DNA of 21,998 bases, taken from positions 1 to 21,998 of IMG/VR virus record IMGVR_UViG_3300030117_003545; one strand, given 5' to 3'. This stretch comes from a virus. The translations under genes and the position numbers were made by a program. Each line of letters starts with the position of its first letter. Position 1 is the first letter of the stretch. Below are positions 2 through 21,169 of this stretch, one piece after another. The notes under the pieces were generated by a model, which was not told where the DNA came from, did not search any database, and saw only the letters and a program-made list of their open reading frames with translations.

Positions 2-223
2 ACAAGTGTCACTCATTTAGATGGAGTTAAATCAGCTTGGTCTATTGGGTGTCTTAAAAAGATGGATGCACAGTCAAACAGCTTTTTATTAAATAGAAGA
101 CATAACTGGAGCCATGCGTTTGCAGTTGTAGATTACTTTGATAATGGTTACTTTACTGTACATATAGTTCAAATAATAGACGGTAGAACCTCATTATGGG
201 GTCAATTAATAAGGAGTAAATAA
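2..223 (+). CDS. C-terminal end of a probable calcineurin-like metallophosphoesterase (5' end outside window)
   Basis: An open frame runs from the window edge to TAA at 221-223 and gives about 73 residues. The start lies outside the window. The visible tail contains S-x-G-C-L-K, then N-W-S-H-A-F-A-V-V, then F-T-V-H-I-V-Q-I-I-D-G-R and a final W-G. From memory, this pattern (GCL, an aromatic-rich NW-x-x-F segment, a beta-strand and an 'I-x-dG-x' end) matches the C-terminus of phage calcineurin-like metallophosphoesterases. The metal-binding motifs would lie upstream, so the activity cannot be verified here. The AAGGAG ribosome-binding site of the next gene overlaps its last codons, so the two genes are in one operon. 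The reading frame is well supported; the family call is moderate. Confidence 0.55.
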   Translation, partial: TSVTHLDGVKSAWSIGCLKKMDAQSNSFLLNRRHNWSHAFAVVDYFDNGYFTVHIVQIIDGRTSLWGQLIRSK

Positions 224-6040: not shown

Positions 6041-6652
6041 ATGTTTAATGCTATAGCAAAATTTATGCAAGGACCAGTTTACTCTGGGAATCAATTTGAA
6101 AGAGATTTTTACAGAGGTGGAGTTGGTGATGAAATGGAAAGACAACAAGGGTTGTTTCAAAATTTGTACCAACAAGGACAAGAGTTAAGCGAAGGTAATA
6201 TACCTCAAGCTGTTAGACAACAATTATATAGTACAGGTCAAGATTCAGCTGCAGAACAAGCTATGTTAGGAACAAGAAATATGATGGCAATGGGTGCAGA
6301 CCCTAGTTCTGGACAAGGTGGTATGATGCAAGCTATTTTGCAAAACCAAGCAAGAAACAATGCAACTAATCAAATGGCTAATATGATTCCTCAATTTATG
6401 AACCAAGGATATAATTTACAGCAACAAGGTTTAAAAGGAATGGCAGATTTGTTAAGCCAAAGACAAGGTGTAAATGTAGGTAGGCAAAATTTAATACAAG
6501 CAAATTTAGCAGACCGTGCTGGTATAAGAAGAGATTTATTAAGTACAGCAGGCGGTATGTTATTGAACCCTGCAGATAATTTTCAAACTTTAAGAAATGT
6601 TGGAAAAATAGGTGGCAGTTTGCTTGACCAAGCAGTAGGGATATTTACATAA
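6041..6652 (+). CDS. Gln/Met-rich internal virion protein (candidate DNA-ejection protein, gp14-like position)
   Basis: This 203-residue protein is rich in Gln, Met, Gly and Asn and is predicted to be mostly helical. It contains runs such as M-G-A-D-P-S-S-G-Q-G-G-M-M-Q and Y-N-L-Q-Q-Q-G-L-K-G-M-A-D-L-L. No enzyme motif is visible. AGGA at 6032-6035 precedes the ATG by five bases. It follows the tail fibre after a 54-base gap, in which I see no clear promoter, and its TAA overlaps the next ATG (TAATG), so the two are translationally coupled. First of three genes ending in a giant protein, it occupies the place of T7 gp14 in a gp14-gp15-gp16 ejection cluster. The role is inferred from position and composition; no sequence homology to gp14 is claimed. 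Confidence 0.85.
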   Translation: MFNAIAKFMQGPVYSGNQFERDFYRGGVGDEMERQQGLFQNLYQQGQELSEGNIPQAVRQQLYSTGQDSAAEQAMLGTRNMMAMGADPSSGQGGMMQAILQNQARNNATNQMANMIPQFMNQGYNLQQQGLKGMADLLSQRQGVNVGRQNLIQANLADRAGIRRDLLSTAGGMLLNPADNFQTLRNVGKIGGSLLDQAVGIFT

Positions 6653-8226
6653 TGGCAACTAATTTTGGTTTTACAATTACCCCAGTAAGAACAGGTAGTG
6701 TAGTTGATACTGCTAGACAAACAATTGATAATTTAGAAAATAGAAGAAGACAAAAAAAACTTGAAGAAATACAAGACCAACAATTAGAGGCATCTAAGCT
6801 TAATTTTCAAATAGCACAAACTGATTTTAACCAATCACAAAAAATAAAAAAATCAGATAACTTTCATAATACATTTGAATTAAATTTAATAAGAGGTTTA
6901 GACAGTGAAATAGACCCTACTACTGGGGCTATGGTTAGTAAAAATTCAATATCTTTTGATAAATTTAATGACCCACAATTTGATGTTAATAAATTTATAA
7001 GTACAGATTATGGTGCATTAAGTGGTAAAAAACAACAATTTATAGATAATTATATTCAACAAATGCAATCACAAGGTTTAACACCTAATGTACAAAGAGC
7101 TGAATTAATGTTTCAAAACATGACTAGCAGAGAAGCAGAAAAAAAATTAAATGAATTAATTAGTGTAGCTCAAAATAATAATTTATCTCCAAAAAAATTT
7201 AATCAACTTCTTAGAGGAAAACGTAATACTTTTGCAGGTACGAATGCAGTAGATTATTATTTACAATTTGTGCCAGATGAAGTTAAAAATGCATTTAATT
7301 CTTCTACTGGTTATGTATCAGGATATGAAACAACATTAGAAAAATTTCCTGGTATAGGTCCTAAAAGAAGTACTTATAGAGCAGGAGAAGGTGGCTTAGG
7401 TGTAGGTATTGGTAAGGCTGTAGATGTTGCTGTTCCTTTAGGAATAGGTGCAGGAGTAGTTGCAGGTGGATTAGAAGGTGCTGGTGCATACTCAGATTTT
7501 AGAGCAAGACAAAATATACCTCAGTTTAAAAAAGATTTAAAAGAAGGGCTTGTAAATAAAAAAGGTAATTTAAAAACAAATTGGAAAAGTCTAATTACTG
7601 ATTCACAAAAAAAACTTTTAGGTGGTGGTAGTTTAGATGAAGGTCAAAAAGTTATAGATGGATTAAAGAAAGGTAACAAAATAAAACAATTAAATGCTGC
7701 TATTGATAAAAATACTAAAGGTGGTTTTAAATATAGACCAAGTAATATTCCTGGTATAAAAGATTTACCAAAGAAGATTCTTGAGGGAAGTAAAGAAACT
7801 AAAAAAACAATTTCTAATATGAAAGGATTACCAATTTATAAAGATTTTGTTACTACCTCTGCAGGTAAAACAGCATTAAAATTAGGAGCAGGAAGTGTTC
7901 TTGGTGGTTTAGCAGGTAAAGCTGCAGGTGACGTAATTGGTGGTGAGACAGGAGCAGCAGTTGGTGACCTTGCAGGTAGTGCAAGTGGAGCATATTATAT
8001 GAATAAGCTAATGCAACCAGAGGTTATGAAAAAAGTTATGGGCATACTTGCTAAAAAAGCTCCAACACAATTTGCTAAAATAGTAGCAAAAGGTGGTATA
8101 TCAGGTGTATTGTCTGGTACAGGTATTGGTACTGCTGTTGGTTTAGCAGGACTTGCATGGACAGTTCATGATATTGTAAAATTAATTCCTAAAATTGCTG
8201 AACTCTCTGAAGTTTTTTCTGATTAA
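6652..8226 (+). CDS. Glycine-zipper internal virion protein (candidate DNA-ejection channel protein)
   Basis: This 524-residue protein starts at an ATG sharing one base with the preceding stop. Residues 22-60 are a charged coiled-coil-like helix. Three Gly/Ala-rich hydrophobic regions follow, at about 248-280, 404-450 and 482-512, with repeated G-x-x-x-G spacing. The stretches between them are Lys-rich. Such glycine-zipper segments are common in proteins that insert into or cross membranes, and phage internal virion proteins often have them. Sitting between a Gln-rich protein and a 3237-residue protein, it fits the middle member of a short-tailed phage ejectosome (T7 gp15 position). The family is not recognised, and the membrane role is inference. 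Confidence 0.85.
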   Translation: MATNFGFTITPVRTGSVVDTARQTIDNLENRRRQKKLEEIQDQQLEASKLNFQIAQTDFNQSQKIKKSDNFHNTFELNLIRGLDSEIDPTTGAMVSKNSISFDKFNDPQFDVNKFISTDYGALSGKKQQFIDNYIQQMQSQGLTPNVQRAELMFQNMTSREAEKKLNELISVAQNNNLSPKKFNQLLRGKRNTFAGTNAVDYYLQFVPDEVKNAFNSSTGYVSGYETTLEKFPGIGPKRSTYRAGEGGLGVGIGKAVDVAVPLGIGAGVVAGGLEGAGAYSDFRARQNIPQFKKDLKEGLVNKKGNLKTNWKSLITDSQKKLLGGGSLDEGQKVIDGLKKGNKIKQLNAAIDKNTKGGFKYRPSNIPGIKDLPKKILEGSKETKKTISNMKGLPIYKDFVTTSAGKTALKLGAGSVLGGLAGKAAGDVIGGETGAAVGDLAGSASGAYYMNKLMQPEVMKKVMGILAKKAPTQFAKIVAKGGISGVLSGTGIGTAVGLAGLAWTVHDIVKLIPKIAELSEVFSD

Positions 8227-8229
8227 TGT

Positions 8230-11200
8230 ATGTCTTATTCACAAAATCCTCTACAACCATTTAGAAGTCAAGCTGAAGAAGAAGAACAAAGACAACAACA
8301 AGTTTACCGACCTCCTAGTACTTTTCCATCATTTAAACCTACTATAGATAAACCTCAAACCGAAGAGTATATAAAAGCATATCAAGATAATCCTAGGCAA
8401 TTTCAGCCTGAGATGTTAAATCTTTTAGATAAACATGCCGCATATTATAAATTACCTTTTTCTTATAATGAAGAAGATAATAAAGCTACTATTGGTAGTG
8501 TTATAAAAAATGTAGGTCAAGGATTTATAGAAGGTTTTACAACATTACCTGTTTCTGGTAAAGATAAACCTACAAATAGTATAGATGCTATAGCAAAAAA
8601 TTTAGGTCATTTAGCAGGTTTTATAGGTTATGTACCTGCAACACCATTAAAATTATTAAATTTAAATAGATTAGCTAATGCTGCTAGAGGACTACGTGGT
8701 AACTCGTTTCCTTTATATGTTGGTAAAAAAGCTACTGAATCAGCAAGTAAAAGAGTAAAGAAAATAATTAATACAGCACAAGGTACTAGAGCTGGTGCTA
8801 GAGAAGCATCAACATCTTTTTTACAAAAAGGGATTGTTAAAGATTTAGCAGAAGGTTCTTTTAACTTAGGTGTAGCTAGTGGTGTAAGTTCTGTTTGGGG
8901 TGGCGTTGACCAGATAATGGAAGGATTTATAGGCGGTGCTGTTACAGGTGGTGCATTTAGAGCTATAGGTAACTCTATACAAGGTTTTGGTCCTCAAGGA
9001 GATAAAGCATTAAGAGCATTAGCATCATCTGTTATGCAAGGATTACCAGCAACACAAGCTGGGATGACAACAGAAGAACAAATATATGAGTACCTTATGG
9101 GTGCATACTTTGGATTTAATGAATTACCTTTTCATAGAAGACAAGGTCTAAAGTTTTTACAATCTAAAAAAGATAAAAACGAAGGTAAAAGAATTGATGA
9201 GATAGAAGGTTTTGATAGATTAGAAAAGAAAACACAAGAATTTTTAGAAAGAGATTATCCTGTTATACCTCCTGGTGAGAATATTGCTGCAGCATTACGT
9301 GAGTTGTTAAAGTTTAGAGATGAGGAAGGTAGACCTATAGACCCTGAAAGTAAACAATTTAAAGATGCAGTACGTGAAGCACAATTAGATAAACCTGTAA
9401 GTAAAGAAGAGTTTTATGAAAAAACTTCAGCAGAACGTTTAAGTGAAGATATAAACTTAAGAACTACAGAAGGTGACCCAGTATTAAAAGATGACTATCA
9501 AGTATCTACAATAATAACTACAGGTAGAGTAAAAGGTTATGTAGATAGAGATAAAGGTGGTTTAAAAAAAGTATGGGATAAAGAAGGTGGAGATGTATTT
9601 GAAAACAGGCAAACAAGATTAAAACTATATGAAGAAGTACAAACACAATGGGATAGGTTAATAAAAAAAGCTATAGAGAAAAGAGACGAGCAGACCTCAG
9701 TAGGAAGAGGAAATACTCTTACAGGTCAAACAATTTTAGAAAGAGAAAGATTAAATATCGAAACTAATGAAAGAGAATATATAAAATTAAATCCTGCTGA
9801 AAATATAGTTGATAGTTTTAGCAAAAAATATAAGGTAGATTTAAGTGATGCAGAACATATTAATTTTTGGAGACAAGAAGGTAATAGAAGATTAGCTGAA
9901 CGTGATGTATTGCAACTTACTGCTTATCAAGGAGAAGGTAAAAATAATTGGATTATAGAAGATGCAATTCTTGGACAACAAAAATCAGGTGAAATAAAAA
10001 TTCTAAAAGAAGAACCTAAATTATTAGAATTAAAATACAATGAAATATTATTAAGTTTAGACCAAAATCCAACATCTCCTAGACCTTTTAAAATTTTGGA
10101 TTCTATTACATTTAAAACTAAAGATAAAAAAGGTAAAGAAATATATTTTACTAAAGACTTTGGACAATGGGAAAGGGATAGAGTTGATGAATATGGTAAA
10201 GATTCTGTTGAAAGCAGAGAAAAATTTACAAAAGAAAAGCAAGAATTTAATTCACAATTATTTAAACAAGTTGATAGAAAGGATGGGATGTACTTCTATG
10301 GAGGACGTGGTGATGCTTATCGTAGTTATTTTGTCAAGGTAAACCCTCATATAAGAGAATATAGTCCTAAACAATTAAAAGAAGAATTAAATAAGATATT
10401 TACAAAAAGTAAAAGAAAATTATATGAAATTGACAGAGAACAATTTATAGATAAATATGGTAATATGGGACCTACTGGAACAAAAAATAAAGGGCTAAGT
10501 AAAGAAGAGGCTCGTGTTTATTATGATAAAGCTACATTGTCTAATATTTATTATGCACATGCTATGTTTGGTAAGGGTTCACTTAAACCAACAATAAAAG
10601 ATTTAAAAAATGTTTTTTATGGCAAGGATAATAAAGTTTATAAAAATGCAAAAGATTTTAATAAACGTCAACAAGTATGGTTTACTGCAGGTATAACTGT
10701 TAGTCCAAGATATATACAAACAAAAATAAAAGATTTAGCTCAAGTTTACACCGCTGCTCCTATAAAAGGTGGTGATGGAATTAGAATGTTACTTGCAGAA
10801 TCTGTAAAAAATCCAGATGAAGCTACATTAAAAAAAGGTAAGGTAAAAGCTAACCAATTAGAAGAACATGAAGATGGAGCTGTTATAGTTAGAAGAGACC
10901 TTGCAGAAGCCTTATTAGCTGAAGCAGGACTGCCAACCGATGGTGGATTCGTTAAAAACTTTATCGTGCATTCTGACCCCGTTTACGGAGCTTTAATAAG
11001 CAAACATGGTATGCATGTTGCATCTCCTAAGTTAGACAAAGCTATGGAAAAAGAAGGTTTACATGTTATAGTAAATACTCTTAGTGCAAAAGCTACTGGT
11101 TCTCGTAAGCCAGTTAAATATGATTTTGAAAAAGGTAAATTAATATTTCCTGATAGGAAAATAGGTGAGTTACCTATGCTTGATAAACCTTATGAAGTTA

Positions 11201-14200
11201 TTCCTATTACTAGTATTAAAAGTGTATATAGTGAATATGCTAACTCTGAATTATCAGGAACTCTTAATAAAGATATAAGAATTCCAAAACCATTGTTTAC
11301 AAATTTAGTAATAAGAGGTAATAAAGGTATTACTGCTGAATCTATAAGAGATATGTATGAACATACTAGTAATGCAAGATTTATAGGTAACCCTGAAATG
11401 AATGCAAAACTTGAAAATTATTTATCATCAGGTTCTAAAAATGAAGGTGTTCTTAATGATTTAATAAATAATGTTGAACAAATAGGTATTGTGCAATTAA
11501 TAAAAGGAATGAATAACAATACAGAGAATGGTCATTTGTTTGCATCAAGAATGTATGACAAGTTATTAAGATTTAACAGACGTTTAGAAGCAGAAAAATT
11601 AGAAGAAGATGGTGCTACTGAACATGAAATTACAGCTAGAATAAATGAGATAAATGATTTTCAAAGTATAAGCGAACGATTAGTAAACTTATTACCAGAC
11701 CATATATCTGTTTATTTACATAAATTTAATTCACCAATTAAAGGTGGTAGTTTAAGAAATTATATTATAAATGAATTAACTAAACCTGTTATAGGTAATA
11801 GTTTAAGTGCTAGAATGCGTCCTTATGATAAAGAGATGCAAGTAAGAAGACATAAAGATGGTCCAACTAAACAGTTAAATACTGATGAAAATATATTTTT
11901 TTTAGATGAAGGATATAGAGCAAAAAAAATTATATTTGAAGGTCAAACTTATACATTAGAACAGTTATTTAAATTAGTTAGAGATAAAAAAGGAGGGTTT
12001 TCTCCTGAAGTTAGAGAAAAAGCAGAAGAAGTTTTAAATGCATTAGTAGTTAGAGTGCCTATGGATAGTGTATCTGGTGCACAGGTATTAAAATTTTCAG
12101 GGTTTACAGGAGCATCTGGTTATGGTGTTTTGTTACATCCAAAAACTATGAAAGCATTAGGTGGTGCAGATTTAGATGGTGATAAAGCTAATGTTTATTT
12201 TGGTGATGAAGTAAGTGGGTTTCATAAGCAATGGAAAAAAATGTTTTCTGCTAACAAAGATGAGTATAAAATTAAAAATGATTTGTCTTTAGATGCTAAA
12301 TCAGAAAAAGATGTTTTTATTAGAGGTGCACAGCTTGATTTAGAGTTAATGGATTCTCCAGATTTAGCATTTTCTCCAATGAGAAGAATGTTAGCATCAG
12401 AAGGAGCTGCACAAGGTAGAGGTATGTTAGGAATAGCTGTTACTAATAAAGCTGCTATTGCTGCGGCACATTCTACTATTGCAGATTTACCTGCAAGAAC
12501 AGAAACAGTTCAAAATAAAAATAAACAACCTGTGCAAATTGCTTTAAAAAAAGGTGAATATTTATATCAAGACATTGTAGATGGAAACATTGTTTACGTT
12601 ATAGCAAAAGCTAACACAAGCAAAGCTGCTTTGGATTTATTTAAAAGAAGGTCAAGGACTGCAATTAACTTAGCTGCTGACCCTATGGATGAAGCAGGAT
12701 TAAAAACTACTAAAGAATTTACACAGCTTATGTTAGAGCCTTTATTTGATTATAAGGTATATAATGAAAATTTTGTAAGTAATAAAGGTAAGTTGTATAG
12801 AGAAGTAAAAACAATGAAAGATGAGCAAGGTAAAAGAGTAGCTTTAAAATTAGATTTAGATGTGCAAAAAGCTCCTATTCAACCTTTTCTAAGTGTAAAT
12901 TCTGCTTTATATGGGTATAATTTTAAAGAAGGCAGAAGGTATTATTCTCAAGAAATATTACAGAGAGTAGATAGAATACATGATGAAGGTAATCAAGTAA
13001 GAAAAGAGTCTGATGGTTTAACTAGATTTTTACATAGACCTGGGTTTGGTGAAAAAAGTAGAAATAGTTTTTATCATTACTTATCAGACAATGTAAAAAA
13101 AATAGGCTCATTTGAAGACTCTATATTTAGAAAAATAGATGAAACTAAATTAGTAGATTTATATACTTTTTTTGAACAAAGTATTAATAAACCTGAGTTT
13201 GAGTTATTTAAAAAAGACATGGATAGAAGAAGTGTAAGCGTAGGAATGGGTCCAGTTATAAGAAATATTTTAAGTAAAAAATTATATACAGAAGAAGGAT
13301 TTAATAAACAATTAGACCCAAATAATTGGGATAAAAATTTAATGGACAAGTATGTTCCTATATCTGAAAGAACAGATTATAATTTTGGAAAAGAAAATAT
13401 TTCAAAAAGACGTAGTTATCTTTTACAATATTTAAAAGCAGGTGAAGATTTTATAATTAATGATATGTCTGATATGGTATCGTTAAAAAGAATTATGAAA
13501 GTAATAGATAAGTATAATATAGATAAAGATAGTCTTGTAGATATAGCACAAAAAGTTGGCAGAGTTAAAATACTTAATGACAAATTATTTCATGGTTCAA
13601 AGTTTAATTTTATACCTTTTGAAGAATTTGCTAAGCTTCCTAAACATAAAGGTATAAGTCAAGAAAGTTTAAAAAAATTATATGAAATAGAAAATGAAAC
13701 AGTACGTCAAGATAAAACTGGAGTAACAGTTACTAATCAAACAATTATAAATAGAAGAATAAAGAGAGATAAAGAACTTTTAAGTAAAGAAGAAAAACAA
13801 TTATATGACGAATTAATGTTAGGAACTTGGAGATTAGGTGAGCCTAAACAAATAAAAAGAATTGAAGATGCTATAAAAAAAGAAAAAGATGATAATGTTA
13901 AAAAAATATTAATAGAAAGAGTAGAAAGTTTAAAGAAAGATGGGTTATCTACAAGATTAGCAAGAACAGGTTTTGGTTCTAGTGAAATATCTGATAGTGC
14001 AATAAAAGGCTATTTAAAAGAATACGACACAATGTTTCAAAAAACTAAAATAATACCTGATTTAGAAGTCAAAAAAATTCAAGATGAAGCTATAAACGCT
14101 ACAAAAATAACTAATATGTTAGATTCTAATGGTGAAAAAATTAAAGGCACTCCTATTAATGTTAATGATTTAGATAGAAAATCACAAAAATATATTGATG

Positions 14201-17200
14201 AGATAGCACCATTTGAAGGATTAACAAGCAAAAAAGCTGCACAAATGACACCAGAGCAAAGAAAGGTATATGAAAATATAGTGCATAATGTAAGAAATTA
14301 CTTTGGTGAACAACCACTTGTTGGTTCTGAGTTTAATGCTTTTGTTCGTGGCACTATGAATAAAGATATAAATACTATGACAAATAATGATTGGGCTGCA
14401 TTTGATGCATTCTTAACAGACATTAGAACAGGTTCTTATATACAAAATTGGTTTTCTAAATCAAAAGACCCTAATCAATACCCTGAAAGAAGTTGGTTAG
14501 ACAATATGTTATTTCCTGAATCTATAAATAAACAATTAATGCGTCATGAAATACAAAGGGTAAAAGCTCTTGGAGTATGGACAGATAAAGCTGGTAATGT
14601 AATAACAGGCACAGTTACAAAGCCTACTCAAATTATTAATCAAATTAGAGATGATTATCACTTTGCACAAGAAAGAAGTATAAGAGATAGTGAAGAAAAA
14701 GTAAAACAATTTGATGATTCATTAGCTCCTTATTTATATGGAATAAAAGAAGGTAATGATTTTTATAGAGTTGCTGGTAGAATGATGGAACATTTTGGTG
14801 GCAAAGTTAGATTAGAACGTAATTTGTTTGATTTAGCTCCAGAAGGTGTTGTAGGACAATACTTAAAAAATACTAGTTTAAGCCCAGAAAGAATAAATTA
14901 TATACGTAATGTGTATAAAAACAAATTAAAACAAATTATTAAAGATACTAATTGGCATAAAATAAAAAATCAATCTTTTGTTATAAGAACTAAAGATGGT
15001 GCTAGGACATTAAAAGGTTATGAAATAGTAAAAGAAATAATAAACTTGCGTGCAAAATTTAATGTTGAAATGTTTAAAAACCTTAGAGGTAAACAAGACG
15101 AAGATGGTTTGTATATAGCAGATAAAAAATATTTAAGTTTAGTTGAGATACCAAATTTACCTGATAGAGTTGGAAACTTAACAAAAAAACAAGAAGATAG
15201 TTTAATTAATGGCGTAGAAAAATTAGTAAAAAAAGTTGTTAATGATATTAATTCAACTAAATATTCAGGTAATAAATTTAATATTGAAGATATAGGTATG
15301 GATGGTATAAATAAAATTAATAAGTACGTACAAATTTATCAAATACATAATCATATGAATATTAAAAAAAGAGGTCATGATGATAGGAAAATGTATTTAG
15401 GTCATATAATGAAAGAAATAAGAAATGGCGTTGAAATGACAGGTCGTATTAACGCTAATGAATATGTGCCTCATACTATGTATAATAGAGCTGCTGCTGC
15501 AAGAAGTATGTTAGCATATATTAAAGCAGTATCTAAAGAATCTGTAGATGGAAAAGATATAACAAGTAAAGAAGCAGATTTAAAAAAAGCTATTATAAGA
15601 TTTAAACAACTAACAGGTGATTATGTAACTAGTAATCAAATATCTGAAGGTTGGACAAAAGTAAGTGAAGTATTTAGGGGTATTGCAGACAATAAAAAAA
15701 CAGTTTTAGATGAAGGTTTTAAAGATTTTTTTAGAAACCAAAGAACAGGTAATGCTTTTAAAAGAACTACACATATAGAAGGTTTTAGTGACCAGCCTAA
15801 TGCATACCATTCTTATATTAAAAATATATATTCTTCTTTTTATAATAATGTTGCAGAAATAAGTGCAAGACAAAAAACTTATGATTTTAGAATAGCTAAT
15901 AAAACTGGTGATAAAGCATTAACAGAAAGATGGGCACAATTTTTTGATATGTATGCAAGAGAAGCTGCTGGTGCACCAGTAAATATACCTAACTGGATGT
16001 TAAATGACCCTAATTATAAAATAAAAGGCACTCCTTATGCATGGTTTGCAGATAATTTATGGGTAAAAAGATTAAATAAAATGCGTAAAAAATTAGGCAT
16101 GGATAAAAAAGTTACAGAAGATTTAATAACTGAGAATGTAATAACAAGGGCTGGTTATAAACCTCCAACTAAAGTTATATCTGGTGGTCAAGAAGGCATT
16201 GATACAATAGGTTTACAAATAGCTAAAGAAAAAAATATTACAACTGGTGGTACAGCTCCACCAGATTTGATTAGAGGACCAAAAGGAAAATACACTCCTG
16301 AAGAAAACAAAAAGTTTGCACAAGAATTTGGTTTAGTAGAAGGTGAACCAGACCCTTATTTTTTTCCTAAAAGAACTATGAAAAATGTAGATGATTCTGA
16401 TGGTACATTAGTATTTAGATTTAGAGTTAGTAAAGGAACAGATAGAACTGTTGGTTATGCTAGGACTGGAAAATGGAAATTAGGTTATGGTAGTAAAGAA
16501 GGAAAAGGTGCTCACAAACCTGTGTTAGTTATTAAAAACATGAACAATGTTACACAAGTAATGCAAAGCATAAAAGATTTTATTACAAGAAATAACATAA
16601 AAACATTAAATGTTGCTGGTCATCAAGAAGTTGGTGCAAATAAAGATATAGTACAAAATATATTAAGAAATGTTTTTACTGGAATTAAACAAAAAACTAC
16701 AAAAGTTACTGCTGATAAAAATCTTCCTATTGAATTAAGACAATTAGATTTTAATCAATTAAAAACATTAGGTCAAATGGAAGCAAAGTATCAGTTAGCT
16801 ACCTTGTTAGCTCATCCAAAAAGTGCAATAGGTAATTTATATGGTGGTACTGTTCATACTTATATTAGCACAGGTTGGGAACATTTTTCTAACGCACAAA
16901 AATTTAGTTACTTAAAACAAAATATAAATCCTAAATGGCAAAACAAAGAAGAGGTGTATGATTGGGTAAAGAGCCATGGTGTTATAGAAGAATTTTTATT
17001 ATACGAAGCTAACATAAATCCTAAAGTACAAAGCTCAGCATTTCAAAAAACAATTAAAGATATTGTAAAGAAATTAGAAAAAGACCCTGATATGGCTGAT
17101 AGAAGTCTATATGAGATAGCATCTAAAAATGGTATTGGAGAAAAAACATTTAATAATGCTGCTTGGTTTATGAGGGCACCAGAAAGAAAGTTAAGAAGAG

Positions 17201-17943
17201 ACGCTTTTGTTGCTCACTATTTAAAAGCACATGAAAAATTTGGTAACATGATAGGTGATTATAACAATCCTTTCTTAATAGAAATGGCAAAGAAAGGTGT
17301 AAAGGGAACACAGTTCTTGTATAGTGCACCATTTAGACCTGGTTTTTCTAGAAGTACCGCAGGTAAAATATTTACACGTTTTCAAATATGGGCTTGGAAT
17401 TCAGTTAGATTTAGAAATCAAGTACTTAGAGAAGCAAACATTAGAGGTTTTAAACAAGGTACACAAGAGTATGACACATTTAAACGTTTGGCAATAGCTG
17501 ACATGTTTATGCTTGGGTTAGCCAATATGTTTCCTTATTCTATATTTGAAGCTACATTGCCAGCACCATTAAACTATTTTGAAGATACAGCTGCAGCTAT
17601 GTTTGGTGATGACAGAGAAAGAGAAAGAGCGTTTTTTGGAGCATATCCTGCACCTTTTCAACCTTTGCAATTAGTTACACCACCTGCATTAAGATTATTA
17701 CCTGCTACATTTAAAGCTATGGTAACAGATGACTACACAAGATTATCTGAGTATTATATGTGGACGATGTTTCCATTTGGTAGAATTGCTAGAGATACAG
17801 TTGGACCTGGAAGTATATTAGAGAATCCCGCTAGAACAATAGAAAAATTAACAGGATTACCTTATTTGGCTGGAACAGCTAGAATTAAAAAAGAACAGGA
17901 AGATGATAAACTAGCACCCAAAGGATTGTTAAATTTTTTTTAG
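8230..17943 (+). CDS. Giant polyvalent virion protein with two-barrel RNA polymerase-like core and SLOG domain
   Basis: This is an intact 3237-residue frame starting three bases after the preceding stop (TAA-TGT-ATG). The order seen is: a Gln/Glu/Pro-rich N-terminus (1-60); hydrophobic Gly/Ala-rich segments at about 121-139 and 209-250; a long charged region; a DPBB-like stretch with D882-G883, K909 and K925; R1275-x-P1277, L-H-P (1302-1304) and G-G-A-D-L-D-G-D with D1314, D1316 and D1318; a cpYpsA-type SLOG domain at about 2645-2815; and a C-terminal 220-residue aromatic region with a hydrophobic segment at 3087-3106. The D-x-D-G-D triad binds catalytic magnesium in all two-barrel RNA polymerases. 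Giant virion RNAPs are known from N4 (a different fold) and crAss-like phages (this fold). Position at the end of the ejection cluster suggests packaging and injection. Size, frame and motifs are seen; polymerase activity and injection are inferred. Confidence 0.92.
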   Translation: MSYSQNPLQPFRSQAEEEEQRQQQVYRPPSTFPSFKPTIDKPQTEEYIKAYQDNPRQFQPEMLNLLDKHAAYYKLPFSYNEEDNKATIGSVIKNVGQGFIEGFTTLPVSGKDKPTNSIDAIAKNLGHLAGFIGYVPATPLKLLNLNRLANAARGLRGNSFPLYVGKKATESASKRVKKIINTAQGTRAGAREASTSFLQKGIVKDLAEGSFNLGVASGVSSVWGGVDQIMEGFIGGAVTGGAFRAIGNSIQGFGPQGDKALRALASSVMQGLPATQAGMTTEEQIYEYLMGAYFGFNELPFHRRQGLKFLQSKKDKNEGKRIDEIEGFDRLEKKTQEFLERDYPVIPPGENIAAALRELLKFRDEEGRPIDPESKQFKDAVREAQLDKPVSKEEFYEKTSAERLSEDINLRTTEGDPVLKDDYQVSTIITTGRVKGYVDRDKGGLKKVWDKEGGDVFENRQTRLKLYEEVQTQWDRLIKKAIEKRDEQTSVGRGNTLTGQTILERERLNIETNEREYIKLNPAENIVDSFSKKYKVDLSDAEHINFWRQEGNRRLAERDVLQLTAYQGEGKNNWIIEDAILGQQKSGEIKILKEEPKLLELKYNEILLSLDQNPTSPRPFKILDSITFKTKDKKGKEIYFTKDFGQWERDRVDEYGKDSVESREKFTKEKQEFNSQLFKQVDRKDGMYFYGGRGDAYRSYFVKVNPHIREYSPKQLKEELNKIFTKSKRKLYEIDREQFIDKYGNMGPTGTKNKGLSKEEARVYYDKATLSNIYYAHAMFGKGSLKPTIKDLKNVFYGKDNKVYKNAKDFNKRQQVWFTAGITVSPRYIQTKIKDLAQVYTAAPIKGGDGIRMLLAESVKNPDEATLKKGKVKANQLEEHEDGAVIVRRDLAEALLAEAGLPTDGGFVKNFIVHSDPVYGALISKHGMHVASPKLDKAMEKEGLHVIVNTLSAKATGSRKPVKYDFEKGKLIFPDRKIGELPMLDKPYEVIPITSIKSVYSEYANSELSGTLNKDIRIPKPLFTNLVIRGNKGITAESIRDMYEHTSNARFIGNPEMNAKLENYLSSGSKNEGVLNDLINNVEQIGIVQLIKGMNNNTENGHLFASRMYDKLLRFNRRLEAEKLEEDGATEHEITARINEINDFQSISERLVNLLPDHISVYLHKFNSPIKGGSLRNYIINELTKPVIGNSLSARMRPYDKEMQVRRHKDGPTKQLNTDENIFFLDEGYRAKKIIFEGQTYTLEQLFKLVRDKKGGFSPEVREKAEEVLNALVVRVPMDSVSGAQVLKFSGFTGASGYGVLLHPKTMKALGGADLDGDKANVYFGDEVSGFHKQWKKMFSANKDEYKIKNDLSLDAKSEKDVFIRGAQLDLELMDSPDLAFSPMRRMLASEGAAQGRGMLGIAVTNKAAIAAAHSTIADLPARTETVQNKNKQPVQIALKKGEYLYQDIVDGNIVYVIAKANTSKAALDLFKRRSRTAINLAADPMDEAGLKTTKEFTQLMLEPLFDYKVYNENFVSNKGKLYREVKTMKDEQGKRVALKLDLDVQKAPIQPFLSVNSALYGYNFKEGRRYYSQEILQRVDRIHDEGNQVRKESDGLTRFLHRPGFGEKSRNSFYHYLSDNVKKIGSFEDSIFRKIDETKLVDLYTFFEQSINKPEFELFKKDMDRRSVSVGMGPVIRNILSKKLYTEEGFNKQLDPNNWDKNLMDKYVPISERTDYNFGKENISKRRSYLLQYLKAGEDFIINDMSDMVSLKRIMKVIDKYNIDKDSLVDIAQKVGRVKILNDKLFHGSKFNFIPFEEFAKLPKHKGISQESLKKLYEIENETVRQDKTGVTVTNQTIINRRIKRDKELLSKEEKQLYDELMLGTWRLGEPKQIKRIEDAIKKEKDDNVKKILIERVESLKKDGLSTRLARTGFGSSEISDSAIKGYLKEYDTMFQKTKIIPDLEVKKIQDEAINATKITNMLDSNGEKIKGTPINVNDLDRKSQKYIDEIAPFEGLTSKKAAQMTPEQRKVYENIVHNVRNYFGEQPLVGSEFNAFVRGTMNKDINTMTNNDWAAFDAFLTDIRTGSYIQNWFSKSKDPNQYPERSWLDNMLFPESINKQLMRHEIQRVKALGVWTDKAGNVITGTVTKPTQIINQIRDDYHFAQERSIRDSEEKVKQFDDSLAPYLYGIKEGNDFYRVAGRMMEHFGGKVRLERNLFDLAPEGVVGQYLKNTSLSPERINYIRNVYKNKLKQIIKDTNWHKIKNQSFVIRTKDGARTLKGYEIVKEIINLRAKFNVEMFKNLRGKQDEDGLYIADKKYLSLVEIPNLPDRVGNLTKKQEDSLINGVEKLVKKVVNDINSTKYSGNKFNIEDIGMDGINKINKYVQIYQIHNHMNIKKRGHDDRKMYLGHIMKEIRNGVEMTGRINANEYVPHTMYNRAAAARSMLAYIKAVSKESVDGKDITSKEADLKKAIIRFKQLTGDYVTSNQISEGWTKVSEVFRGIADNKKTVLDEGFKDFFRNQRTGNAFKRTTHIEGFSDQPNAYHSYIKNIYSSFYNNVAEISARQKTYDFRIANKTGDKALTERWAQFFDMYAREAAGAPVNIPNWMLNDPNYKIKGTPYAWFADNLWVKRLNKMRKKLGMDKKVTEDLITENVITRAGYKPPTKVISGGQEGIDTIGLQIAKEKNITTGGTAPPDLIRGPKGKYTPEENKKFAQEFGLVEGEPDPYFFPKRTMKNVDDSDGTLVFRFRVSKGTDRTVGYARTGKWKLGYGSKEGKGAHKPVLVIKNMNNVTQVMQSIKDFITRNNIKTLNVAGHQEVGANKDIVQNILRNVFTGIKQKTTKVTADKNLPIELRQLDFNQLKTLGQMEAKYQLATLLAHPKSAIGNLYGGTVHTYISTGWEHFSNAQKFSYLKQNINPKWQNKEEVYDWVKSHGVIEEFLLYEANINPKVQSSAFQKTIKDIVKKLEKDPDMADRSLYEIASKNGIGEKTFNNAAWFMRAPERKLRRDAFVAHYLKAHEKFGNMIGDYNNPFLIEMAKKGVKGTQFLYSAPFRPGFSRSTAGKIFTRFQIWAWNSVRFRNQVLREANIRGFKQGTQEYDTFKRLAIADMFMLGLANMFPYSIFEATLPAPLNYFEDTAAAMFGDDRERERAFFGAYPAPFQPLQLVTPPALRLLPATFKAMVTDDYTRLSEYYMWTMFPFGRIARDTVGPGSILENPARTIEKLTGLPYLAGTARIKKEQEDDKLAPKGLLNFF
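10873..12219 (+). other. Candidate two-barrel RNA polymerase core within the giant protein (residues 882-1330)
   Basis: The first barrel candidate reads D882-G-A-V-I-V, then F-V-K909, then G-A-L-I-S-K925-H-G-M-H. This resembles the D-G ... F-x-x-R/K ... G-x-K-G layout of RDR-type polymerases and the two conserved lysines of the bacterial beta barrel. The second barrel reads V-R1275-V-P, about 22 residues, L-H-P, then G-G-A-D1314-L-D1316-G-D1318. This follows the beta' order N-R-x-P, L-H-P, A-D-F-D-G-D and even more closely the S-D-L-D-G-D of RNAi polymerases. Just upstream, S-A-R-M-R-P-Y-D-K-E-M (around 1194-1204) sits where other members have a conserved basic segment before barrel two. Motif order and spacing are seen directly; fold assignment awaits a structure prediction. 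Confidence 0.7.
16162..16674 (+). other. SLOG domain (cpYpsA-related, 'molybdenum carrier-like') within the giant protein, residues about 2645-2815
   Basis: Four family motifs appear in order: V-I-S-G-G-Q-E-G-I-D (2649-2658), G-G-T-A-P near 2675, R-T-x-x-N-V-x-D-S-D-G-T-L-V-F, and L-N-V-A-G-H-Q-E (2793-2800). This matches the SGGQTGVDR / GGWCPKG / NVxDSDGTL / LNVAGPRE layout of the cpYpsA-related SLOG family. The usual final D-R of SGGQTGxDR is D-T here, and PRE is HQE. SLOG domains have a Rossmann-like fold and typically bind or process nucleotides and nucleotide-derived signals; the 'molybdenum carrier' name is historical. Its ligand here is unknown. Confidence 0.85.
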
Positions 17944-18175: not shown

Positions 18176-18411
18176 TCTACACACTTAATATGACCGCTTC
18201 TTGCTCTAGGATATTCGTAATCACTATCCATTTGCACTGTCATTTTAGATAATAATCTTTCTGCTAATAATATTTCTTTGGTTACGCTATCATTTTCTTT
18301 ACGTAATCTTGACCTAATTTCTTTCATATCCTCTAGATAATCTTGTGTTAATTCTAACATAAGGTCATGTTCTTCTTTTTCTACGCTTGCTATACGTTTT
18401 GCTACTGCCAT
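18163..18411 (-). CDS. Small helical protein of unknown function
   Basis: This is an 82-residue protein that I do not recognise. The ATG at 18411 has an excellent AAGGAGG nine bases upstream (18421-18427) and shares one base with the stop of the HNH gene. Residues 8-60 are rich in Glu, Lys, Leu and Arg and look like one long helix or coiled coil (E-K-E-E-H-D-L-M-L-E-L, then L-L-A-E-R-L-L-S-K-M). The tail ends C-V-E-C-E-D, a single C-x-x-C pair. Coupled translation with both neighbours is likely. A dimeric accessory or small inhibitor protein is possible, but nothing in the sequence decides it. Confidence 0.75.
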   Translation of the reverse strand: MAVAKRIASVEKEEHDLMLELTQDYLEDMKEIRSRLRKENDSVTKEILLAERLLSKMTVQMDSDYEYPRARSGHIKCVECED

Positions 18412-18851
18412 TAGTATTTACCTCCTTTTGACAATTTGCTTAATACATACTTACTTATTTCTTCTGTTTGTTCTGACAACCAAGATAAGATATATTTAAA
18501 ATCTTTTTCTTTTAATGCACCTTTTCTTGTGTTACAGGTTTTACATATCATTTGTAAGTTTTTTGGTATTGATTTACCTTGTTTAGATAATGGTATTATA
18601 TGGTCACATACCATATTTCTAACATTTAGAGTTTTATCACAATACTTACATTTTTTGTTATAGGCTAAATAAAATAATTTTTTTATATCATTTAGGCTAA
18701 CATCAAATAATACATCGTATTCTTCTGAACGTTTTTTAAGTGATTGTTTTAAAGCACTTGCTTTACGTGATAGTCTTTTCCAGGCACGGTTCCATTGACG
18801 ACCGTGTACCTCAACTAACTTTTCTCTAAATTTATTTTTTTTATATTCCAT
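18411..18851 (-). CDS. HNH endonuclease (possible free-standing homing enzyme)
   Basis: This is a 146-residue protein from ATG at 18851; a TTG at 18893 would add 14 residues but would start inside a hairpin. The N-terminal half is a very basic helix region (R-A-W-K-R-L-S-R-K). The C-terminal half is a canonical HNH fold. Numbered from the TTG, C82-x-x-C85 and C117-x-x-C120 form the structural zinc site, D97-H98-I-I-P-L-S carries the catalytic histidine, and N112 and N121 complete the motif (N-L-Q-M-I-C-x-x-C-N-x-x-K-G). HNH enzymes nick or cut DNA. In phages they act as homing endonucleases or in packaging, and the position among replication genes away from a terminase favours homing. The gene after it is coupled by a one-base overlap. 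Confidence 0.88.
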   Translation of the reverse strand: MEYKKNKFREKLVEVHGRQWNRAWKRLSRKASALKQSLKKRSEEYDVLFDVSLNDIKKLFYLAYNKKCKYCDKTLNVRNMVCDHIIPLSKQGKSIPKNLQMICKTCNTRKGALKEKDFKYILSWLSEQTEEISKYVLSKLSKGGKY

Positions 18852-18857
18852 AATATA

Positions 18858-18904
18858 ATAAGGGTAGGATGCTATTACTATTTTTGGAAACAACCTACCC
18901 CTAT
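18858..18904. repeat. Inverted repeat (hairpin) in front of the HNH gene
   Basis: GGGTAGG (18862-18868) pairs perfectly with CCTACCC (18894-18900). The arms extend to 11 bases each (18858-18868 and 18894-18904) with one mismatch, around a 25-base loop. On the leftward transcript the hairpin ends six bases before the ATG of the HNH gene, and the alternative TTG start is in its loop. It may control HNH translation or end transcription from upstream; the T-content after it is only modest. Confidence 0.6.
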
Positions 18905-19157: not shown

Positions 19158-19382
19158 TTACCTCCAGTTGAATTGTATGGAAAATATACTAATTAATTTC
19201 CATATGTTAAACGAAAAAGATATAGTGTTAGTTTTGTTTTGTTCATCAAGTTTTAAATCTATACCAATAGCAATAACAGACAACAATATAATTCTGTAAT
19301 GTTGTCTTGTTATTGTTTTAGTATTTTGAAAAACCCAATCTAACCATGCAATACGACTCACTATACTTACTAATGTATTCAT
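19158..19382 (-). CDS. Doubtful small ORF of unknown function
   Basis: This is a 74-residue frame that fills the gap between two good genes exactly. Its ATG overlaps the preceding TGA (ATGA, 19379-19382) and its TAA ends one base before the next ATG. That fit argues for a real gene. Against it, there is no Shine-Dalgarno site, the protein is Ile/Asn/Ser-rich with no known motif (one hydrophobic stretch, I-I-L-L-S-V-I-A-I-G-I), and the frame contains a 15-bp inverted repeat and a T7 promoter-like sequence on the other strand. It may be a coupled small protein or a noncoding regulatory spacer. Confidence 0.42.
   Translation of the reverse strand: MNTLVSIVSRIAWLDWVFQNTKTITRQHYRIILLSVIAIGIDLKLDEQNKTNTISFSFNIWKLISIFSIQFNWR
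19271..19315. repeat. 15-bp inverted repeat with one-base bulge
   Basis: CAATAACAGACAACA (19271-19285) pairs with TGTTGTCTTGTTATTG (19300-19315), with one extra T in the right arm, around a 14-base AT-rich loop. Read rightward it is followed by TTTTAGTATTTT, which is terminator-like; read leftward there is no T-run. It could be an operator for a dimeric regulator, a rightward terminator or part of a replication origin. Confidence 0.65.
19350..19365 (+). promoter_or_regulatory. Exact match to the phage T7 RNA polymerase promoter core
   Basis: AATACGACTCACTATA matches positions -16 to -1 of the T7 class III promoter without a mismatch. The -17 base is C instead of T, and the +1 region is CTTAC instead of GGGAGA. 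It points rightward, antisense to the leftward genes. The match itself is certain; promoter function is doubtful because no T7-like polymerase is visible in this window and the initiating G is missing. Confidence 0.4.
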
Positions 19383-21169
19383 ATTCGTTTTAAACGAAAT
19401 GAATCTTGAAACTCTAAGTCTACTTCCCAGAGTTCACCGTCAGTGCTTTTTACCATTTTTAACCTCCGTTTCCGATTTTTAGATTCACCTTCTAGCACTA
19501 ATAATTTACGTGATGCATTCTCTATTGCACCACTACCTTTACCTGAGTAAATATCTAATACTCCACTTCTTGCATATTCTCTTGATGTCTGAGATAATTG
19601 TATTATAATTAAATCATAATTAACTGCAAGATTACTTAATGCGTGTGATATATGACGTAATGATTCGTATTCACCTCTTGTATGTTTAGGTGGTTCTACT
19701 AAATCAATATAATCTATCACAATGCACGCAGGGGATACCTCTCTTATTTTCTTTCTTATGTCTTCTACAGTTGGACTAATAGTTTGTAACATAAGATGGT
19801 CTAGTTTATCTCTGTGTATATCATACAATGTTCTTGCACTATCTCTTTTCATATTATCACTTGTTGTATTAGATACAATTTGGATATTTCTTCTGTGCAT
19901 TAGCCAAGGTGCAAGTTCTAAAGATAGATATAACGTAGGGATTTGCAATTCCTTTTCTATTGTATCTTCTGATGCATTATAAGACAATGCAATATTCTGT
20001 GCAAGTGTAGTTTTATTTGTACCTGTTGGTCCAACAATAGTAACTAACTCACCTGGATATACAATAGATTCAGTTCCAACTAAACCATATAGTTTAGATA
20101 GATTAATGCTTACACCTGAAAAGTCTTTTTCCATACGATTATTTAATAACGCTTGTAAATCGTCAACGTTAAATACGTCCATAAGGTAATCCTTTCTTTT
20201 AAAATGTATACAATTAGGTTGACAATACTGCATCATTATGTTATCCATACAACCGTATTGATACCCTTTTGTGTAAACATCATTTATGTTTTGTAACAAT
20301 TGAGTTTTAGACAAACCATTTTCTTTGTTCCAATGGAACATTGCTGCTTTCGTAGCGTTTAATGGAATGCCATTTCTTTTAAAGTGTGATATAATACGCA
20401 TAGAAGTAATATGTCTTTGTCCTTCTTGAGGTTTATTATTGTACATATCTTGTACACAAGGAACAACATTACTAGATACAGTAACATTGTTAAATGCTTT
20501 TACATTAGGTGAATCAAAACGAACTAAACTTTCTAGTTTACCTTGTTGTTCATCTGATGGATATGTATAAACATCGTTTCTATCCCATTTCTTACCAAGA
20601 TTAGAGATAGCCTTATAAGACATACCAAAAAATTGTTCTTCACTAATATATGTTTTGTATAAACCTGATTTTAGATTTTTACTACCTGCACATCTATACA
20701 ATGCAGACCTTGAATATACAGACATATCTGCATCTGGTATAAGTTTCATCATAGTATTTTTTACTATATAAGGTAAATTTTTACCTGCGTGATTTTCAAA
20801 GCCAAATACATTTGCTGATACATCAAAGTGAAAACCTGTACCACTAAAAAATACACAGATACTTTCAGCATCTAAATGTTCTTTTAATAAATCATATACA
20901 TCATGTGCTTTGTCAAGTGTTTTATCACCTGAGTTTTCAACCATATCTATGTCTATAGGTACATAGTCTATACTCCTATAACCGTTATATCCTTTTACAC
21001 TTTTAGTTTTCTTAATGAAATCGTAACCTTCGTCATCATATAAATAAACAGAACGATATACAGGAAACTTTTTCCCGTATACCGTTACTGCTTCTTCAAG
21101 TTTGTCAAGAGTTGTTAATTGTCCTCTTGACATTGGATTACGCAAGGCTATCTCAACATAGCCTTGCAC
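19379..21169 (-). CDS. Replicative primase-helicase: archaeo-eukaryotic primase fused to a DnaB/RecA-type ATPase
   Basis: This is a 596-residue protein from GTG at 21169; an ATG at 21133 would give 584. The N-terminal third is an AEP-type primase: I-D-I-D (D73, D75) supplies metal ligands, S-G-T-G-F-H114 is the S-x-H motif, and P-D-A-D148 followed by Y-R-C-A-G-S-K-N-L-K-S-G is the third motif region. A cysteine cluster (C307, C316, C320, H322) may bind metal. The C-terminal third is a hexameric-helicase ATPase: Walker A G-P-T-G-T-N-K386-T, Walker B C-I-V-I-D486, and I-I-I-Q524-L-S-Q as motif 3. It should unwind DNA at the fork and lay primers. The stop overlaps the next ATG. Gene order (SSB-like protein upstream) supports replication. 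T7 does the same job with an unrelated TOPRIM primase. Confidence 0.9.
   Translation of the reverse strand: MQGYVEIALRNPMSRGQLTTLDKLEEAVTVYGKKFPVYRSVYLYDDEGYDFIKKTKSVKGYNGYRSIDYVPIDIDMVENSGDKTLDKAHDVYDLLKEHLDAESICVFFSGTGFHFDVSANVFGFENHAGKNLPYIVKNTMMKLIPDADMSVYSRSALYRCAGSKNLKSGLYKTYISEEQFFGMSYKAISNLGKKWDRNDVYTYPSDEQQGKLESLVRFDSPNVKAFNNVTVSSNVVPCVQDMYNNKPQEGQRHITSMRIISHFKRNGIPLNATKAAMFHWNKENGLSKTQLLQNINDVYTKGYQYGCMDNIMMQYCQPNCIHFKRKDYLMDVFNVDDLQALLNNRMEKDFSGVSINLSKLYGLVGTESIVYPGELVTIVGPTGTNKTTLAQNIALSYNASEDTIEKELQIPTLYLSLELAPWLMHRRNIQIVSNTTSDNMKRDSARTLYDIHRDKLDHLMLQTISPTVEDIRKKIREVSPACIVIDYIDLVEPPKHTRGEYESLRHISHALSNLAVNYDLIIIQLSQTSREYARSGVLDIYSGKGSGAIENASRKLLVLEGESKNRKRRLKMVKSTDGELWEVDLEFQDSFRLKRI
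21142..21167. repeat. Perfect 10-bp hairpin at the start of the primase-helicase gene
   Basis: GCAAGGCTAT (21142-21151) and ATAGCCTTGC (21158-21167) are perfect inverted repeats around a six-base loop. On the leftward transcript the stem begins at the last base of the GTG start and ends before the alternative ATG at 21133. No T-run follows. It may control start choice, block ribosomes or mark an RNA-processing site. Confidence 0.7.

Follow-up and report, generated by a model that had tools for sequence, protein, structure and literature searches.

The stretch of DNA analyzed here (the window; 21,998 nt, positions 1 to 21,998 of IMG/VR virus record IMGVR_UViG_3300030117_003545) comes from an uncultured, probably short-tailed phage. 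It contains a giant open reading frame (ORF), for the middle third of whose product a two-barrel RNA polymerase (RNAP), a fold in common with cellular RNAPs, is confidently predicted (Table 1). The giant protein is very likely a virion-packaged ejection protein with this single-chain, DNA-dependent RNAP covalently built in; transcription would thus probably be started by a polymerase that the phage itself delivers into the cell. Relatives exist at full length, among them a protein of 3260 aa at locus L002. In Pfam and PHROGs scans of the giant protein, the SLOG insert was the sole convincing match.

Table 1. Features of the window, in order of position; residue numbers are those of the respective protein
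Feature	Position (nt)	Strand	Basis and remarks
203-aa protein upstream of giant ORF, candidate small ejection/core protein	6041..6652	+	Position only; no convincing family match
524-aa protein directly upstream of giant ORF, candidate ejection protein	6652..8226	+	Position; hydrophobic segment at residues 256-274
Giant ORF, 3237 aa	8230..17943	+	N-terminal conserved domain, then two-barrel RNAP, then helical ejection-type half; full-length relatives (L002, others)
N-terminal conserved domain, residues ~34-345, function unassigned	8329..9264	+	34-43% identity to giant proteins of six related genomes
Predicted two-barrel RNAP domain, residues ~612-1631	10063..13122	+	Structural model; Foldseek/VIA matches to gp66, QDE-1, P74 gp62, RDR2, Pol I/II, beta'
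First barrel, DPBB-B-like, residues ~850-1003 (limits approximate), with D882-G883, K909, K925, K954	10777..11238	+	Model strands, invariant residues, lysine spacing and S-A-x-K-x-G motif in common with crAss RNAPs
Second barrel, DPBB-A-like, residues ~1191-1323 (limits approximate), with RxP at 1275, H1303, DLDGD 1314-1318	11800..12198	+	Translation, model, conservation, hhalign
Long helix, residues 1383-1418, candidate bridge helix	12376..12483	+	36-residue helix in model; conservation; bridge role inferred
R1476...D-P-x-D-E1488 motif, candidate trigger-loop region	12655..12693	+	Conservation
Helical region, residues ~2134-2845, weak likeness to T7-type ejectosome core proteins	14629..16764	+	VIA rows for model of relative L023
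Inserted circularly permuted YpsA SLOG domain, residues 2649-2801, lineage-specific	16174..16632	+	Pfam PF12694, E 5e-16
C-terminal conserved domain, residues 2830-3237	16717..17940	+	38-72% identity across family
HNH endonuclease beyond late cluster	18411..18893	-	Homologues in six related genomes
Primase-DnaB-type helicase, replication module	19379..21169	-	Homologues in six related genomes

Predicted fold and active site of the polymerase region

A sequence-only reading of the window had placed a two-barrel active site at nucleotides 10873 to 12219. All motifs that it named were found at the claimed residues of the translated ORF (D882-G883, K909, K925, R1275-V-P, L1302-H-P, and G1311-G-A-D-L-D-G-D1318), and DxDGD is present once among the 3237 residues. 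The limits of that extent did not hold, the polymerase domain being wider on both sides (Table 1). Relatives were collected by scanning IMG/VR with the back-translated motif GADLDGDK, which yielded at least 120 stretches, from which ∼100 ORFs were retained; after removal of near-duplicates, 81 sequences including the window remained, mostly 25 to 40% identical to the window across the polymerase region.

An AlphaFold2 model of residues 612 to 1811, built on the 81-sequence alignment, had a pLDDT of 86 and a pTM of 0.87 for the polymerase region. It gave a confident two-barrel polymerase fold, including the double-psi barrel (DPBB) that had been proposed around residues 1270 to 1330 and strands for the first barrel that had been placed at residues 882 to 932. 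Searched against the PDB with Foldseek, the model matched best the virion RNAP of phage phi14:2 (6vr4; E 1.8e-10), followed by five entries of QDE-1 (8e-6 to 6e-5). All matches with E <0.001 were single-chain two-barrel RNAPs, and the weaker rows among those listed were chains of multisubunit-type RNAPs, Pol I and beta' among them. VIA-align served as a second look at the Foldseek candidates, rows no more than 1 Z unit apart being counted as tied. The highest row was P74-26 gp62, another two-barrel enzyme (8f5m; Z 12.7 over 455 residues), tied with maize RDR2 (12.4); 6vr4 (11.6 over 719 residues), QDE-1 (11.6), and Pol I/II, African swine fever virus, and bacterial beta' chains (9 to 10) followed. 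The structure matches spanned both barrels of gp66, P74 gp62, QDE-1, and RDR2. In BFVD, the top two matches were unnamed viral proteins (21 to 24% identity; E 1e-48 and 3e-37), followed by other unnamed and crAss-like proteins. These two are probably members of the giant-protein family, relatives of which would therefore already have UniProt entries, unnamed in the tables examined.

Since the first set of relatives had been chosen on GADLDGDK, aspartate conservation within it was discarded as evidence, and a second, motif-independent set was used in its place. For this, IMG/VR was scanned via the C-terminal domain (residues 2830 to 3237), and 80 of the 297 relatives found were retained. DxDGD was kept in all 52 ORFs reaching the polymerase active site; another eight polymerase-matching ORFs start at or past it. 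Among the nonredundant members of this set, D1314, D1316, and D1318 were each invariant (38/38), as were D882, G883, K909, and K925 (35/35 each) and R1275 and P1277 (37/37 each). The invariance proposed as a test for the aspartate triad and the two lysines was thus borne out, and because all 52 ORFs retain DxDGD and the triad is complete in 38/38, the motif is not a chance occurrence. A third lysine, K954, absent from the sequence-only reading, proved to be as invariant as the other two (35/35). LHP was conserved in part, with H1303 in 37/38 sequences and P1304 in 21/38, where 14/38 have glycine instead. Beyond the second barrel, the 36-residue helix at residues 1383 to 1418 carries R1386, G1396, R1397, and L1400 in all 38 sequences and is a candidate bridge helix. 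The candidate trigger-loop motif is similarly conserved (D1484 and P1485, 38/38; D1487 and E1488, 37/38; R1476, 35/38, with lysine in the other 3).

This pattern bears on whether the polymerase fold has decayed and is retained solely as a structural part of an ejection protein. Phage ejection proteins can be large and tolerate insertions, which would be compatible with such decay. The aspartate and lysine positions of the active site are nevertheless all invariant in a family that is merely ∼30% identical to the window around them, and we consider a decayed fold extremely improbable.

Relationship to known two-barrel polymerases

A profile of phi14:2 gp66 and eight homologues was compared with the window-family profile by hhalign. 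The profile-profile search that had been suggested gave a collinear alignment with the crAss RNAPs over 450 columns (E 9e-4; score 46, versus 21 for the reversed window profile and 29 for the best of 60 block shuffles). The program's own probability for this alignment was only 23%, so that the window family is a candidate member of the gp66 family. D1314, D1316, and D1318 were placed on gp66 D1361, D1363, and D1365. By eye, K909, K925, and K954 pair with lysines that recur in the crAss family, namely, in PLKxxYFG, 15 residues further on, and in S-A-V-K-V-G. The distance from the RxP arginine to the first aspartate is 39 residues in the window, 39 in gp66, and 38 in P23-45 gp96. Single-sequence hhalign comparisons to gp96 and gp66 gave no signal, and the comparison to P23-45 gp64 aligned just 46 columns around the active site, weakly; a significant sequence link of the family to gp96 or gp64 was not found by hhalign.

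The closest known counterparts are the crAss-like virion RNAPs (phi14:2 gp66; crAss001 gp49/gp50), which gave both the best Foldseek PDB match and the only clear profile alignment. They too carry both barrels on one chain inside a large virion protein, which the giant protein would also be, and share the RxP-to-Asp spacing of 39, paired lysines 15 to 16 residues apart, S-A-x-K-x-G, and DxDxD, usually followed by lysine. In contrast to this likeness, the relationship is detectable profile to profile only, the C-terminal half of the giant protein differs, and the window has DxDGD where crAss-like enzymes mostly have DFDID or DFDVD. Two experimental precedents come nearest. Virions of crAss001 carry giant RNAP-associated cargo proteins (PMC10172136). 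In P23-45, the tape-measure-fused RNAP gp96 is a virion component; it binds pre-early genes and can extend RNA (PMC10770324). Like the giant protein, gp96 has DxDGD and fuses an RNAP to a protein that enters the cell, which in the case of the window is a putative property; gp96, however, is the tape measure of a long-tailed phage, with an N-terminal RNAP and no clamp, whereas the RNAP of the window lies mid-protein in a podovirus-type setting. QDE-1 and RDR share the single-chain two-barrel fold (Foldseek E ∼1e-5; VIA Z 11 to 12) but are eukaryotic, act in RNA silencing, and stand outside any phage context.

C-terminal half and genome setting

The C-terminal half was modeled on the last 1200 residues of relative L023, which gave a helical model of moderate confidence (pLDDT 73, pTM 0.69). 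Foldseek returned no match at E <0.001 for this model. In VIA-align, the first, third, and eighth rows were phage ejectosome/core proteins, 8vb2 (Z 7.2 over 220 residues, within the chance range for helical models, and with a relative's model as the query), 7eyb (6.5 over 205), and 9vvp (5.5 over 210), which from their lengths we read as gp16-type proteins. The matching part corresponds to window residues ∼2134 to 2845. The likeness to T7-type ejectosome core proteins is suggestive, not proof; the position as third of the putative internal virion proteins is also similar to that of the T7 gp16-type, PhiM1, and E1004 core proteins, which unlike the giant protein are without a polymerase. Within this half, a long insert at the SLOG site was seen in just 5 of 133 ORFs (the window, L049, and three copies of one relative, L045, L206, and L207), the remaining 128 having a short linker there. 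The SLOG domain may be an effector delivered together with the polymerase.

Tail genes and other late genes precede the giant gene in six related genomes, where it is last or next to last in the late block; the replication module, on the opposite strand, holds homologues of both the HNH gene and the primase-helicase of the window. At L002, too, an HNH-type gene comes after the giant gene, on the opposite strand. The related genomes encode a large terminase, and one (G023; 53,236 bp) looks complete because of its ∼152-bp terminal repeat. Profile searches covered 20 related records of ∼40 to 54 kb, some of them possibly fragments. A P22-type portal scored above the cutoff in 18 of the 20, while phi14:2 gave a subthreshold match only, and an SU10-type major capsid protein was found in G014. 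Together with record sizes well apart from the 90 to 100 kb of Crassvirales and the absence of an INPHARED match, these features argue against an origin from that group. In tblastn searches of INPHARED, two members' RNAP regions had no match, and the C-terminal domain had one chance match (E 0.5). Searching GTDB genome contigs with the RNAP alignment yielded no relative, and thus neither a prophage nor a cellular copy.

Profile searches of the 20 records (G001, G006, G008, and others) detected no family A, B, or C DNA polymerase, the controls being positive. This, and the presence of QDE-1 and RDR2 among the nearest folds, would fit a two-barrel polymerase with another job than early-gene transcription, either priming or copying phage DNA in the manner of PolD or copying RNA like RDR. 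The crAss virion RNAP is, however, the best Foldseek match and the only profile-level relative, a primase-helicase is already encoded, and the late-cluster location of the gene is in keeping with a virion protein. The long helix past the barrel, moreover, fits a bridge helix, and beyond the barrels no conserved elements common to RNAPs and PolD were found (PMC10770324). Such another job is therefore unlikely, and a DNA-dependent RNAP for transcription remains our preferred assignment.

Several further observations concern the same genomes. Those examined encode a primase-helicase and a Sak4-like protein despite the absence of a detected family A, B, or C DNA polymerase, and replication may depend on a host polymerase. 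The replication module of G014 has neighboring genes for a ThiF/E1-like protein and a JAB-like peptidase (35687-37162; Pfam ThiF 5e-13; JAB 0.001, under the cutoff), with similar neighbors in G002, G004, G023, and G024. Adjoining the JAB gene is a gene for a 584-aa protein without a Pfam or PHROGs match (37089-38843), and G002 has a similarly placed ∼540-aa gene. Window positions 2 to 223 are the end of a gene with a homologue in 6/6 related genomes, the G014 copy of which matches a metallophosphoesterase family (PHROG 221; E 4e-24). A Mu Gam-like DNA-end-protection protein (L132:5596-6159; PHROG 253, E 5e-12) lies beside the helicase in G023.

Proposed virion delivery and significance of the family

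That the polymerase is carried in the virion is inferred from the position of its gene, which closes the late structural cluster, the weak ejectosome likeness of the C-terminal half, and the parallel with crAss-like virion RNAPs. An active RNAP made inside the infected cell and left unpackaged, such as P23-45 gp64, which has the same fold (PMC10770324), would be an alternative, the more so as the virion location of the giant protein is itself an indirect assignment. Against this stand the place of the gene at the structural-cluster end and the covalent joining of the polymerase to a conserved C-terminal half that weakly resembles ejectosome core proteins, and we judge an unpackaged enzyme very unlikely. 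The virion RNAP of N4 has the T7 (right-hand) fold. It resembles the proposed system as a virion-delivered RNAP within a giant protein of short-tailed phages, but the T7 RNAP profile (PF00940) was not found in the 20 related records (T7 control positive, E 1e-109), a result consistent with the earlier suggestion that transcription would begin without a T7-type enzyme.

Besides the chance-range ejectosome scores, several points weigh against a virion-delivered RNAP. Searches turned up neither virion proteomics nor transcript or biochemical data on any family member. Ordinary sequence searches of the RNAP region against PDB chains, with a single sequence and with a profile, returned no characterized polymerase and only a chance coiled-coil match. 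A scan of the early region in one complete-looking genome revealed no repeated promoter motif, and sigma-70-like sites there occurred at chance level, giving no pointer to the targets of the polymerase.

For a packaged ejection protein with a built-in RNAP, the following sequence of events can be envisaged. The giant protein would be made late together with its two smaller neighbors, packed in the head, and on infection threaded through the portal and short tail. Its helical C-terminal half may help to form an envelope-crossing channel, as suggested by the weak fold match to T7 gp16-like proteins, while the RNAP part would refold in the cytoplasm. By homology, the aspartate triad would bind the catalytic Mg2+, the lysines of the other barrel would contact the substrate, and the long helix would act as the bridge helix. 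The polymerase might then transcribe the first-entering phage genes before or instead of the host RNAP, in line with the lack of a detected T7-type RNAP in related genomes. More tentatively, and with considerable doubt, the polymerase could stay covalently anchored to the channel, itself partly formed by the same polypeptide, and transcribing the entering DNA would then also pull the genome in.

Neither the two-barrel fold nor, in general terms, a giant virion protein containing such an RNAP is new. We judge the window family to be a new lineage of virion-delivered two-barrel RNAPs, a variant of the kind known from crAss gp66 and P23-45 gp96; as far as searched, what is new is the lineage, its setting in small phages with a P22-type portal and SU10-type capsid, and the joining of the RNAP to an ejection-type C-terminal half that is conserved. 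Literature searches yielded no paper describing the family; the supplementary tables of PMC10770324, on 23 RNAP families and a viral-genome survey, lay outside these searches and may include it. With ∼100 or more motif-bearing loci and 297 C-terminal-domain loci from single IMG/VR scans, the family is common. To the short list of phages that apparently inject a two-barrel RNAP (crAss-like phages and P23-45), it adds a distinct lineage whose genomes are smaller and whose virions are of another type. This suggests that joining such an RNAP to an ejected protein is a solution that recurs. Compact constructs (residues ∼612 to 1700) offer a handle on activity, template entry, and transcription-coupled DNA entry. 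If the polymerase were indeed anchored to its own channel, a single molecule would combine ejectosome and RNAP, in a lineage of small phages that is widespread and has no known isolate.

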